The translations under genes and the position numbers were made by a program. Under the pieces are notes generated by a model, which searched no databases, was not told where the DNA came from, and was given only the letters and a program-made list of their open reading frames with translations. From contig NZ_MCVI01000021.1 in the NCBI RefSeq assembly GCF_002873135.1, positions 74,794 to 138,793 on the forward strand: DNA of 64,000 nt. Direction: 5' to 3'. This document shows positions 8,483-57,862 of this stretch, one piece after another; the stretch's first letter is position 1; each line of letters begins with the position of its first letter. Source of the stretch: Shewanella sp. 10N.286.48.A6 (lineage in GTDB: Bacteria; Pseudomonadota; Gammaproteobacteria; Enterobacterales; Shewanellaceae).

Positions 8483-9086
8483 ACCCGGTTTTTTTAAGCG
8501 TTTAAAAGCGCTGTCATTACCTCAAAAGCAACTTTTTGCGACCGCGCTATGTCAGCGCATGCTGCCCAATTACGCCCTTTTCTCCGAAGTGTGTGAGTTT
8601 GGCGAGCCTAAAGTATTAAGCACAGTATTGGATTTACTTTGGCAATCACAATACGATAAAAAGCTTAAGTTTAATTACGATATTCACTTACAGCGTTTAG
8701 ATGAAAATACCCCTGAGCCTGCAGATTTTGAAGCCTACGGTGTTTATCCTGCAATGGATGCTGCTGTAGCGTTATCGACTTTACTCGGTGGCATACAAGC
8801 TAAAATCGAAGAAGATATTACCAACGTCAGTAAATTATCATCAAGTACAGTGGCCAACTATATTGAAGCCATTAGCATTGAAGAACTTGAAGACGTCATG
8901 AATGAAGATGTTGTAGAAGAGTTCGTATTTAACCATCCTGTAATGCAAGAAGAGAAGCACTTACAAGGAATGTTATTAGATGTGATTGAAGAAACAACAA
9001 AAATCACACCTGAATTCATTAAGGAATTACGCAAAGAAATCATTGATGCTGGCGTGTCTAATATCGGCATCAGTCTGCAGCAATGA
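8472..9086 (+). CDS. YjaG-family (DUF416) protein
   Basis: This 204-residue cytoplasmic protein resembles E. coli YjaG (DUF416), whose function is not established. Visible features are FFKRLKALSLPQKQLFATALCQRMLPNY at the start, a helical acidic middle, and EELEDVMNEDVVEEF near 140, typical of this all-alpha family. The ATG at 8472 is preferred because the product then begins MSNKPGFF like its relatives. An ATG at 8463 would add three residues. The start lies inside the last codons of barA (11-base overlap), implying translational coupling. A tandem repeat and a hairpin follow the stop codon. Confidence 0.85.
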   Translation: MSNKPGFFKRLKALSLPQKQLFATALCQRMLPNYALFSEVCEFGEPKVLSTVLDLLWQSQYDKKLKFNYDIHLQRLDENTPEPADFEAYGVYPAMDAAVALSTLLGGIQAKIEEDITNVSKLSSSTVANYIEAISIEELEDVMNEDVVEEFVFNHPVMQEEKHLQGMLLDVIEETTKITPEFIKELRKEIIDAGVSNIGISLQQ

Positions 9087-9094
9087 TACTTTTA

Positions 9095-9134
9095 AAGTAG
9101 CAATAGCACTCTTTAAGTAGCAATAGCACTCTTT
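9095..9134. repeat. Two tandem 20-bp units after the yjaG-like stop
   Basis: The 20-bp unit AAGTAGCAATAGCACTCTTT occurs twice head to tail with no mismatch (9095-9114 and 9115-9134). A degenerate third unit may start inside the gene (about 9078-9094, GCAGCAATGATACTTTT) and include its TGA stop, which would mean the gene end itself seeded the duplication. The repeat runs into the stem of the following hairpin. Confidence 0.85.
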
Positions 9135-9166
9135 AATAAGGGCCTGTCATCATGCCCTTATTAAAG
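9131..9166 (+). terminator. Hairpin downstream of the yjaG-like gene
   Basis: CTTTAATAAGGGC pairs perfectly with GCCCTTATTAAAG (13-bp stem, 10-base loop). It is a likely end for the barA-yjaG transcript. The bases after the stem are not a clear U-tract, so it could instead be an mRNA-stabilising structure. From here to the next gene (9167-9411) I see only AT-rich sequence. Confidence 0.6.
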
Positions 9167-54232: not shown

Positions 54233-54276
54233 AAGTGCGCTAATGCTAAACCAAAAGTGCGCTAATGCTAAACCAA
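54233..54276. repeat. 22-bp perfect tandem duplication after the PilZ gene
   Basis: Two identical 22-bp units (starting AAGTGCGCTAATG) occupy 54233-54254 and 54255-54276, about 60 bp after the PilZ-protein stop. A smaller echo (TCAAAACCTGA then TCAAAACTTGA) precedes them. Confidence 0.85.
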
Positions 54277-54378
54277 ATTGATACACTAATCTCGACAGCG
54301 CTAATAGAGTATATATTGCAATCACTTGGTTTGTATTACTTCAGCTAGCGCTTATCGCTGCAGTTTATTTTTAAGTTG

Positions 54379-55275
54379 CTACTTAGCCAAACTGTCATAC
54401 CAGCTTTTCACTAACGGGAAATGATCATCTACTGCGGATTTGTCGGTTAACATGCCTGCATGGGTGTAGTCCCGCTTAAAGCCGCGATGTTTAGCCAGTA
54501 AAGTATACTCAGCTGCCACCATCTGACACTCACCCATCATATCTTGCACATCTGAAGGGTTACCTAACACGCGGTCCTTTTTAGCGGCTAAAAACCAACA
54601 AGGCGGCCAAGTCACCTGCCTAGCTGCAGCGGCATAATCAAAGTTATCATGGCAATCTACCCAATCACCTTTTACCCAATCTATGGTTTGCCTTAATGAT
54701 TGCCGGCTTTCATTGTCCATACCCATTCGATATTTATCTGCCGCTAAATAGCCATCCACTTTTGACAAAAATGGCGCCAACCGATTCCAAAATAAATCCA
54801 CCATCATGGTTTTACGCAGAGATTTAATTTTGATGGTTCTTTTACTACCAAAGGTGACAAATGAAGCCACTTGAGTACGCACCTTAGCTAAGCGAACATA
54901 ACAGCTCGCCATTAACACCCCGCCCCATGAGTGCGCGCACCAATGCACTTTACTTGCTGATGAATGCGATAAAATAAACTCATTGGCAAGGGGCAGCTGC
55001 TCTAAAATCACTTCGGTTTGACCTAAGGAATAGGCCGCGCTGATTTTAGGCTCACTTAAGCCTCTGCCTGCCGTATCGAGTATATACACATCAAAACCTT
55101 GCCTAGCAAGATAGCAACCTAAGCCTTTGCCCGAGGCACTGTAAAATACCCGTCCATTTGACATTGCGCCATGTAACATCAAAATTGGCATGCCTTTAGC
55201 CAAGCTAGGGTTTGCTTTGATATGCCGAATATGAAGGCGACCATTTCGATAGGGAATAAAATATGACTGCTGCAT
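54379..55275 (-). CDS. Alpha/beta hydrolase
   Basis: This 298-residue cytoplasmic protein has an alpha/beta hydrolase fold. LMLHGAMSNGRVFY (about 33-46) is the oxyanion region, AHSWGGVL (about 114-121) the nucleophile elbow with Ser as GxSxGG-like, and DYTHAGML (about 273-280) provides the catalytic His. A lysophospholipase or esterase-like role is possible, but the substrate is not evident. The minus-strand gene is preceded by the serB terminator and is not in an operon. Confidence 0.85.
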   Translation of the reverse strand: MQQSYFIPYRNGRLHIRHIKANPSLAKGMPILMLHGAMSNGRVFYSASGKGLGCYLARQGFDVYILDTAGRGLSEPKISAAYSLGQTEVILEQLPLANEFILSHSSASKVHWCAHSWGGVLMASCYVRLAKVRTQVASFVTFGSKRTIKIKSLRKTMMVDLFWNRLAPFLSKVDGYLAADKYRMGMDNESRQSLRQTIDWVKGDWVDCHDNFDYAAAARQVTWPPCWFLAAKKDRVLGNPSDVQDMMGECQMVAAEYTLLAKHRGFKRDYTHAGMLTDKSAVDDHFPLVKSWYDSLAK

Positions 55276-55370
55276 GGGAATGAATATGACTATTTTGAGT
55301 GTATGAACTTAATACGGTAATCAGTGCAAATGTTAATTACAAGTTAATTAGAGTAATGAGCCTAATCAAG

Positions 55371-55402
55371 ATAAAAAATGGCTCACTTAAAGTGAACCAT
55401 TT
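55371..55402 (-). terminator. Terminator downstream of serB, beyond the repeat array
   Basis: On the minus strand AAATGG-TCACTT pairs with AAGTGA-CCATTT with one mismatched position, followed by TTTTTTAT. It is the first good terminator after serB and lies about 570 bp beyond the stop codon, on the far side of the tandem array. Confidence 0.8.
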
Positions 55403-55469
55403 AAAAGTGCTCTCAGCCAATATCTAAACAGCTAAGAGTCGATGCCATTGATGCTTGCAGCTCTTTACC

Positions 55470-56034
55470 CTTGCAGTGTTTTTAGGCTTGCAAGTAATAC
55501 ACAAAGTAATAAACAAAGCAGCGTAAATCCAAGTTATTGATACTGGTATCGGCAGCTTTTAGTTACTTAGGTTAAACCGTCATTTAACATTATGCTTGCA
55601 GTGTTTTTAGGCTTGCAAGTAATACATAAAGTAATAAACAAAGCAGCGTAAATCCAAGTTATTGATACTGGTATCGGCAGCTTTTAGTCACTTAGGTTAA
55701 ACCGTCATTTAACATTATGCTTGCAGTGTTTTTAGGCTTGCAAGTAATACACTAAGCAGCGTAAATCCAAGTTATTGATACTCGCATCGGCTGCTTTTAG
55801 TCACTTAGGTTAAACCGTCATTTAACATTATGCTTGCAGTGTTTTTAGGCTTGCAAGTAATACACAAAGTAATAAACAAAGCAGCGTAAATCCAAGTTAT
55901 TGATACTGGTATCGGCAGCTTTTAGTCACTTAGGTTAAACCGTCATTTAACATTATGCTTGCAGTGTTTTTAGGCTTGCAAGTAATACACTAAGCAGCGT
56001 AAATCCAAGTTATTGATACTCGCATCGGCTGCAG
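55470..56034. repeat. Five-copy tandem array derived from the 3' end of serB
   Basis: Units begin at 55470, 55595, 55720, 55833 and 55958 with the same start (CTTGCAGTGTTTTTAGGC). Lengths are 125, 125, 113 and 125 bp, and the fifth is the serB 3' end itself up to about 56034. Each unit contains the last 75 bp or so of serB including its stop, plus about 38 bp of downstream spacer. The 125-bp units carry an extra 12 bp (around TAATAAAC). Copies differ at only a few bases, so the expansion looks recent. From 55276 to 55469 there is only the terminator and no gene. Confidence 0.95.
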
Positions 56035-56965
56035 CAAGCAGTTTCGGCTTAGCATGGAAGGCAATACCAAAATCAGCAGCATTAACCATAGGAATATCGT
56101 TGGCGCCATCGCCAATGGCCAGCCGTTGCCCTGCAGCAATTTGCCAAGTGGCACTGCACTTATCAATCACATTGGCTTTATATTGGGCATCAACCACATC
56201 ACCTGTTACTTCACCGGTTAACTTACCCGCTTCAATAACCAGCTCATTGGCGTAAGCGGCATCTAAATCCAGTAAATCTTTTAAATAGCCCACAAATGGG
56301 GTGAATCCGCCCGAGGCTAACACTAACTTCCACTCGTTAGACTTTAGTTCTGCCACTAGGCTTTTAAGTCCTGGCATCAAAGGAAGTTGCTCACATAAAG
56401 TGCTGATAATACTCTCATTGGCGCCTGCAAGCTTACTGACTCTTAAGCGTAAACTCTCTTCAAAGTCTAATTCCCCTTGCATGGCCCTTTCGGTGACTTC
56501 TGATACCGCCTCACCCACGCCAGCCATCACAGCTAATTCATCAATACATTCTATTTGAATCGCGGTGGAGTCCATATCCATCACTAATAGACCCGGTTTA
56601 AATAAGCTCGCTAGCGGCGCGGTTATATTGAGAAGTTCTGCTTTTACCTGCTGCGGAAATTGACTCATCAGTGTCCCTAAAACTGAGGTTGAGGCAAGTT
56701 CAAAACCTTGTAAATCGTTATGTCTCATCAAAGGCGTAATCGCGCAGTCTTGGGTTAACTTTGCCAGCCAGTCATTAATGGCCCCAAAAGATTGCGCTTC
56801 AAATACCACTCTAAAACGATAAGGGTACTTAACCTGAACATTGTTAAGATACTCGTCTTCAAAATAACGAGTTAAAGTGACATGATTATGGCTATACGTC
56901 GCATCAAATGTTGAGAATAACCACGTTAATGGCTGAATATTTACCTGAGTTTCCATGGACTGCAT
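55970..56965 (-). CDS. serB: Phosphoserine phosphatase
   Basis: SerB hydrolyses O-phosphoserine, the last step of serine synthesis. The 331-residue product has an N-terminal ACT-like region (about 1-110) and a HAD-type phosphatase domain. The catalytic motif VMDMDSTAI has its nucleophile Asp near 130, ASGGFT carries the motif II Ser near 235, and GDGANDIPM the motif III Asp near 290. Length fits the family. The start ATG is at 56965, and an alternative at 56956 (METQVN) is better spaced from GGGG upstream. The C-terminus LRCLVYYLQA is the piece repeated downstream. It is divergent from ytjB. Confidence 0.95.
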   Translation of the reverse strand: MQSMETQVNIQPLTWLFSTFDATYSHNHVTLTRYFEDEYLNNVQVKYPYRFRVVFEAQSFGAINDWLAKLTQDCAITPLMRHNDLQGFELASTSVLGTLMSQFPQQVKAELLNITAPLASLFKPGLLVMDMDSTAIQIECIDELAVMAGVGEAVSEVTERAMQGELDFEESLRLRVSKLAGANESIISTLCEQLPLMPGLKSLVAELKSNEWKLVLASGGFTPFVGYLKDLLDLDAAYANELVIEAGKLTGEVTGDVVDAQYKANVIDKCSATWQIAAGQRLAIGDGANDIPMVNAADFGIAFHAKPKLLAAADASINNLDLRCLVYYLQA

Positions 56966-57043
56966 TTCCCCAATGATTGCGACTATCTACAATGAATTAT
57001 TTCGATTAGTATTAATTAAATAGAAAAATGACCAAGGATTAAA

Positions 57044-57862
57044 GTGATTTTTGTTAAAGGTCTTAAAAAAAGCCAAAAAATCAGCAGATTAATTCAAATC
57101 AGCATTGCTGTAATTTTATTATTTGCTTTAGTGCATTTATGGAAGTCGAGCCTTAATAACGGTCAGCAACTGCTGAGTTCGCAAACCCAAATCATGGCGC
57201 GCTTATTAGCTCAACAAGTGGCCAATGGCGCAGCCCCAGCAATGCATCTACAAAATGATGAGCAACTACAATGGCTAGCCAATGCGCTCGTGCTCGACCC
57301 AAAAGTGATGTCAGTGAACATGTACAGTACTCAAGGGGTAAGGCTGGCGTTTGCCCAAAGCGTATCAGACATCGAATTTGACGCCGATGATAAAGTACTA
57401 ACTGAGATGTTATCGCCCTACCCACCTTTAATTGAAAACGTGCTTCAAGGTGACAATAACTTAGGCTATATCGAGGTGAGGTTAAACTTACATATTTTCT
57501 TTGATGAATTAAAAAGCCACTATCAAGAAAATATGAAGCAACAACAAATTATGCTGATTATTGCAGGTATTATTGGTTTGCTGCTGTCGCGGGTCTTTTC
57601 GTTTAAACGCGCAGATTTCGACCGACGTAAAACTCGCGCCAAACAAGGACGTAAAAATAGCCAATTAGTGCAAAAAAGCTTGTCTGAAGAAATGCATCAA
57701 CTTGAAGATAGCCGGACTGAACCGGCAGATATGGATGACCAAAGCGCTAACCCAAAATCCTCACTGATAACAGAGTCTGATAGCGATGAAAATATGACTT
57801 TTAAACAAGAGATACTAGAAGCCGAAAACCTCAGACTTGATGATAAAAGTAAACCCAGTTAA
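57044..57862 (+). CDS. ytjB: YtjB/SMP-family membrane protein
   Basis: YtjB (SMP_2 family, PF10144) is an inner-membrane protein next to serB in many gammaproteobacteria, with no settled function. The 272-residue product has two helices (about 15-33 and 168-186) enclosing a periplasmic domain (GAAPAMHLQNDEQLQWLANALVLDPKVMSVNMY, in part about 60-92). The tail is basic to acidic and cytoplasmic. The start is GTG at 57044 with AAGGA seven bases upstream. It is divergent from serB and convergent with deoD across a shared terminator. Confidence 0.88.
   Translation: MIFVKGLKKSQKISRLIQISIAVILLFALVHLWKSSLNNGQQLLSSQTQIMARLLAQQVANGAAPAMHLQNDEQLQWLANALVLDPKVMSVNMYSTQGVRLAFAQSVSDIEFDADDKVLTEMLSPYPPLIENVLQGDNNLGYIEVRLNLHIFFDELKSHYQENMKQQQIMLIIAGIIGLLLSRVFSFKRADFDRRKTRAKQGRKNSQLVQKSLSEEMHQLEDSRTEPADMDDQSANPKSSLITESDSDENMTFKQEILEAENLRLDDKSKPS

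Follow-up and report, generated by a model that had tools for sequence, protein, structure and literature searches.

A tandem array of the serB 3' end in Shewanella sp. 10N.286.48.A6, and further arrays over gene ends in its lineage

Five copies of a gene end behind serB

The window, by which we mean the whole 64,000-nucleotide stretch of Shewanella sp. 10N.286.48.A6 DNA under analysis (genome G000 below, a 4.65-Mb draft in 104 contigs), carries on its minus strand an open reading frame for 331 amino acids (55970..56965) which we take to be serB, encoding phosphoserine phosphatase. The name is that of the original prediction and fits DGANDIPM-type motifs; the best named relatives of the product are Shewanella SerB proteins. 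Downstream on the same strand, in a conserved neighbourhood, the open reading frame list places a hydrolase-like gene (54379..55275). Between the two, the 3' end of serB is repeated head-to-tail on the minus strand (55470-56032). Both repeat finding and alignment of the units bear out the five-copy amplification that had been read from the sequence, with Tandem Repeats Finder returning three descriptions of the array (scores 645-1009), and it occurs only once in the G000 genome.

Counting outward from serB, unit 1 (55920..56032, 113 bp) is the true end of the gene, its last 63 bp including the TAA stop codon, plus 50 bp of post-stop DNA. Unit 2 (55795..55919, 125 bp) differs in carrying a 12-bp insertion that resembles a local doubling of TTAGTGTATTAC, unit 3 (55682..55794, 113 bp) is identical to unit 1 at all 113 of 113 positions, and unit 4 (55557..55681, 125 bp) again has the insertion and matches unit 2 at 123 of 125 bp. 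Copy 5 (55470..55556) is an 87-bp partial copy that consists of the coding end with the insertion and stops 12 bp past its stop codon, without the 38-bp part that follows in the other units; aligned with copy 2, it looks identical across the shared part. Beyond it lies unique flank, in which AGCATCAATGG (55445..55455, minus strand) resembles AGTATCAAT within the serB end. Successive unit starts are thus 113, 125, 113 and 125 bp apart, with the insertion absent, present, absent, present and present in copies 1 to 5; this is the pattern of lengths originally proposed (113, 125, 113, 125 and 125 bp), set in a different register. The composition of the unit had to be corrected, from about 75 bp of coding end plus a spacer of about 38 bp to 50 bp of post-stop DNA behind a serB end of 63 or 75 bp that includes the stop, since the earlier 75 bp had included 12 post-stop bases.

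The array has a periodicity of 238 bp, and the pairwise identity of units 1 with 3 and of 2 with 4 upholds the suggestion that a 113+125 dimer was duplicated as a block. The simplest order of events would be a two-copy state followed by one duplication of the 238-bp dimer and one of a single unit. Minisatellites are defined by highly similar units, each measuring tens to hundreds of base pairs and arranged head-to-tail, as they are here; a CRISPR can be set aside, the spacers being alike rather than unique. The 38-bp spacer occurs at four places in G000, all within the array, and a search allowing up to three mismatches found it neither elsewhere in G000 nor in the Shewanella genomes G087, G072, G026 and G037. 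By eye it might derive from the serB terminator, a candidate source that we rejected because the resemblance is no better than in shuffled sequences (fractions 0.35, 0.39 and 0.18). With no source found, the junction of the present units in the window is not readable.

serB loci across the genus and the age of the array

A SerB match was present in 128 of 129 Shewanella genomes, and at all 128 loci the last 200 bp of serB was compared with the 1.4-1.5 kb behind the gene (E 0.001). Only three genomes have arrays, G000 with five copies, G087 with three and G072 with seven; no 3'-end repeat was detected at this threshold in the other 125, and 60 serB loci from outside Shewanella (L022-L081) gave only short chance matches, the best of 12 bp. 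In 118 of the 128 genomes serB is followed by the hydrolase gene, read in the same direction; it lies 32-514 bp away in 115 of them, while the gaps in the three array-bearing genomes measure 694, 378 and 934 bp. (The 514-bp gap, L086 in genome G063, holds an inverted-repeat insert that looks like an element.) Comparison of this gap among relatives had been proposed as a way of telling function, expected to fix the copy number, from slippage, expected to vary it; both copy number and unit do vary, which favours slippage. Copy number differing between related genomes, with at most one copy in the other relatives screened, is likewise as in a minisatellite.

The array in G072 (L098), whose SerB is 61% identical, has a unit quite different from that of G000; its seven copies are spaced 121 and then 126 bp, and all of the extra copies share a 5-bp insertion. 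This genome is a distant one, and its array arose separately from those of G000 and G087. A hot spot at serB was considered and rejected, as one further independent array in the other 126 genomes is unremarkable given how frequent arrays are at other genes of the lineage.

The sister genome G087 is about 92% identical to G000 in DNA sequence across the serB region. Its three copies have a 90-bp unit and spacers different from those of G000, but copies 2 and 3 share the G000 insertion in a 13-bp form, an insertion that is missing from the true serB end in both genomes and from G026. Because the extra copies of both genomes share it, the multi-copy state is most likely older than the split of G000 and G087, unless an array was passed between the lineages. 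At about 8% divergence, the arithmetic chance of 113 identical bases is about 8e-5, so that the 238-bp dimer would be younger than the split or else its copies convert one another. The proposal that the array is either recent or kept homogeneous by recombination would thus hold for the dimer, while the multi-copy state itself would predate the split.

In its near-identical, head-to-tail units of about 100 bp, differing in number between relatives (five against three), the array is like the minisatellites or VNTR loci of bacteria; it differs in covering a gene end with its stop codon, and the comparison here is of one genome per species. An artefact of assembly in a 104-contig draft hardly comes into question. 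Near-identical blocks of 238 bp are hard for short reads, and the number of copies given here may be off, likelier too low; yet the units differ among themselves, the independent draft of G087 has a related array, and that of G072 lies in a single-contig genome.

Junctions, transcription and the origin of the array

For six arrays, two at serB (G072 and G087) and four at further genes, we aligned the gene copy, the junction between copies and the flank that follows the final copy, and counted runs identical in all three. The names of the further genes here and below (mutS, nudE, rpiA, ferritin-like, PilZ-type and so on) are presumptive, given from the look of the sequences. Direct repeats of 4-6 bp bound the unit at the crossover in five of the six (4, 6, 4, 5 and 6 bp): ATGG at serB of G072, ATCAAT, inside a 9-bp near-repeat, at serB of G087, CAGT at a gene for 289 amino acids, CAAAA at a ferritin-like gene and TTTCAG at nudE. 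G000, where nudE is single-copy, already has both TTTCAG motifs at the corresponding positions. Slippage or template switching from one short direct repeat to another would be expected to leave such repeats at the crossover; the junction at mutS, with no clear short repeat in the same alignment (2 bp), counts against this explanation. The unit at serB of G087 is bounded by a 9-bp pair with one mismatch, the counterparts of AGCATCAATGG and AGTATCAAT, and it is from the G087 array that the older junction of the serB array may be deduced.

We regard the serB array, with high though not complete confidence, as a near-neutral minisatellite made from a gene end, born by slippage between short direct repeats and tolerated since it does no damage to the gene. 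In a first step, well supported by the junctions, slippage or template switching between a short direct repeat near the end of the gene and one past its stop would have duplicated the stop codon and its surroundings in tandem, leaving an intact serB as the first copy, with nothing lost. The extra copies then gained small insertions and, in G000, the 38-bp spacer, as comparison of the genomes shows. Further slippage or unequal exchange would have added, removed and homogenised copies, including, to judge from the copy identities, the one dimer duplication and the one single-unit duplication.

Integration classically takes place at the 3' ends of genes and of tRNAs, and the arrays described here occur at both, so that the copies might be thought remnants of site-specific integration at the serB end, that is, duplications of an attachment site. 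This is very improbable: the 113-125-bp units hold no gene in the open reading frame list, there is no integrase or element between copies but only 50 bp of spacer, and the 38-bp sequence is confined to the array. Nor is a large insert seen behind serB, the hydrolase gene following within 32-934 bp in the 118 genomes, and the ends of the arrays differ between genes, which a single integrase would not explain.

The original prediction placed the only good serB terminator beyond the array, and a scan of 55250-57100 does find a single terminator-like site there (55376..55402, minus strand), a count of little weight by itself as shuffled sequences average 1.4; the same hairpin can be read at the matching position behind serB in G087 and G026, and the serB transcript likely ends there. 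Since the array sits between the serB stop codon and this site, transcription probably runs through it and gives a long 3' untranslated tail of about 590 nt, the repetitive tail that had been proposed, provided that the site is indeed the terminator.

In the regulation of serB, repeated untranslated units could offer a binding platform, influence stability or give rise to small RNAs, and besides the probable transcription, a 7-bp hairpin in each spacer of the predicted fold and the origin of serB arrays at least twice would suit such a role. We nevertheless consider it improbable. No Rfam family comes near its cut-off for the array (best 16.3 bits against 36), and folding is only slightly better than in shuffled sequences (z -1.52, with 2 of 20 shuffles equally good). 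The spacer is missing from G087, G072, G026 and G037, the sister G087 differs in both unit and copy number, and 125 of the 128 genomes do without an array. There is no coding continuity through the array, every copy ending in TAA, and the insertions in the G087 and G072 arrays are out of frame. Promoter-like matches at 9 of 12 positions recur in each spacer, with no excess over shuffled sequences (5 against 4.9). Overall, nothing in the sequence pointed to a function as an RNA, as a mobile element or in coding.

Arrays over other gene ends

Tandem arrays were also collected from samples of G000 (779 kb), G087 (365 kb), G026 (400 kb) and G072 (400 kb), and in the G000/G087 lineage arrays over gene ends are not special to serB. 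In G000, the end of mutS is present in three 177-bp copies, each with a terminator-like hairpin (L237:5350-5835, G000:C21:65350-65835), on the side towards an rpoS-like gene; the end of a gene for 289 amino acids adjoining rpiA stands in two copies of 89 bp, and this gene is single in G026; the end of a ferritin-like gene is repeated 2.3 times with a 30-bp unit; and a 181-bp unit carrying the 3' part of tRNA-Met occurs 2.6 times (L271:8913-9395, G000:C1:28913-29395). In G087, the 3' end of nudE forms six copies of a 139-bp unit (L323:10757-11578, G087:C6), a PilZ-type gene adjoining the serB region has three copies of 46 bp, and two further protein-gene ends carry arrays. A tRNA-Asp gene of G087 is repeated together with its terminator in 3.7 degenerate units of 195 bp (L329:688-1400, G087:C13), and tRNA-Asp arrays stand at more than one place in that genome. 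As mutS is single-copy in G087 and nudE in G000, these two arrays arose after the split.

Smaller repeats were noticed as well. In the window, a 22-bp perfect repeat (54233-54277) lies between the PilZ-type gene and the hydrolase gene, about where G087 has its 46-bp array (C20 42287-42426), and a 20-bp tandem repeat (9079-9136) lies directly 3' of the stop of a 208-codon open reading frame. Close to the start of a G072 contig there is a non-coding array of 17.7 units of 37 bp (L214:1896-2549, G072:C1).

Arrays with a period of at least 80 bp over gene or tRNA ends, serB excluded, number three in the G000 sample, two in G087 and none in either G026 or G072; that G000 and G087 are the richer in such arrays is suggestive only. 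Among known systems, the 178-bp repeats at E. coli tyrT (rtT RNA) are tandem units that each combine the upstream gene's 3' end with a spacer. The serB array is built in this way too, and the tRNA-Met array of G000, with its 181-bp period, is a close likeness; the serB unit, in contrast, carries the end of a protein gene and no tRNA 3' end, and no rtT match was found in Rfam for the serB, tRNA-Met or tRNA-Asp arrays. The MIRU repeats of mycobacteria, also intergenic tandem units touching a stop codon, are one family spread across many loci, unlike the serB array with its single locus and its confined spacer. A literature search turned up neither a serB array nor Shewanella gene-end arrays, which does not prove their absence from the literature.

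Random tandem duplication outside gene interiors is expected to span a stop alone in 20.3% of cases and a start alone in 20.9%. In G000 and G087 together, with serB excluded and open reading frames called on length alone, stop-spanning arrays outnumber start-spanning ones by 7 to 1 on a strict count and by 9 to 1 on a looser one (p 0.03-0.009), which admits two marginal arrays that barely reach into the end of the gene (C21 83872 and C1 64993). Left out were a 'start' at C1 29224, a spurious open reading frame over the tRNA-Met array that would make the count 9 to 2, an open reading frame fragment in a large repeat region running off its stretch (G072 L216), open reading frames within tRNA-Glu genes (G072 L225) and clusters of tRNA genes. 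A preference for stops in the G000/G087 pair is thus suggested, not shown; G026 has no stop-spanning and two start-spanning arrays, G072 is also without the preference, and the raw rows of all four genomes come to 11 against 7.

An excess at stops speaks against pure neutrality unless a selective filter acts. One reading of it is a process aimed at gene 3' ends, in the zone of transcription termination, that operates in this lineage beyond random slippage filtered by selection. The excess where about 1 to 1 is expected would agree with it, as would the tRNA 3' ends that are affected too, but the numbers are small, G026 and the four-genome total do not follow, and selection against doubled starts or promoters would give the same picture; we think it unlikely. 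Slightly less so, though still doubtful, is the broader notion that in this lineage something about the ends of transcription units (forks that stall, termination, the action of topoisomerase or copying of a cDNA-like kind) repeatedly duplicates the final few dozen bases of tRNA and protein genes along with the downstream flank, which would make gene 3' ends a distinct birthplace of minisatellites. When the duplicated stretch spans the stop, the gene itself remains whole, and this alone may be enough to explain why slippage-born arrays are found at gene ends.

Taken alone, the serB array is a curiosity, and the wider set of arrays in the lineage is the more interesting part. Arrays that are single-copy in one sister and multi-copy in the other are minisatellites caught soon after birth, with their founding short repeats readable. 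The set provides ready typing markers, and it makes it possible to ask if gene ends generate more repeats or simply retain them better.
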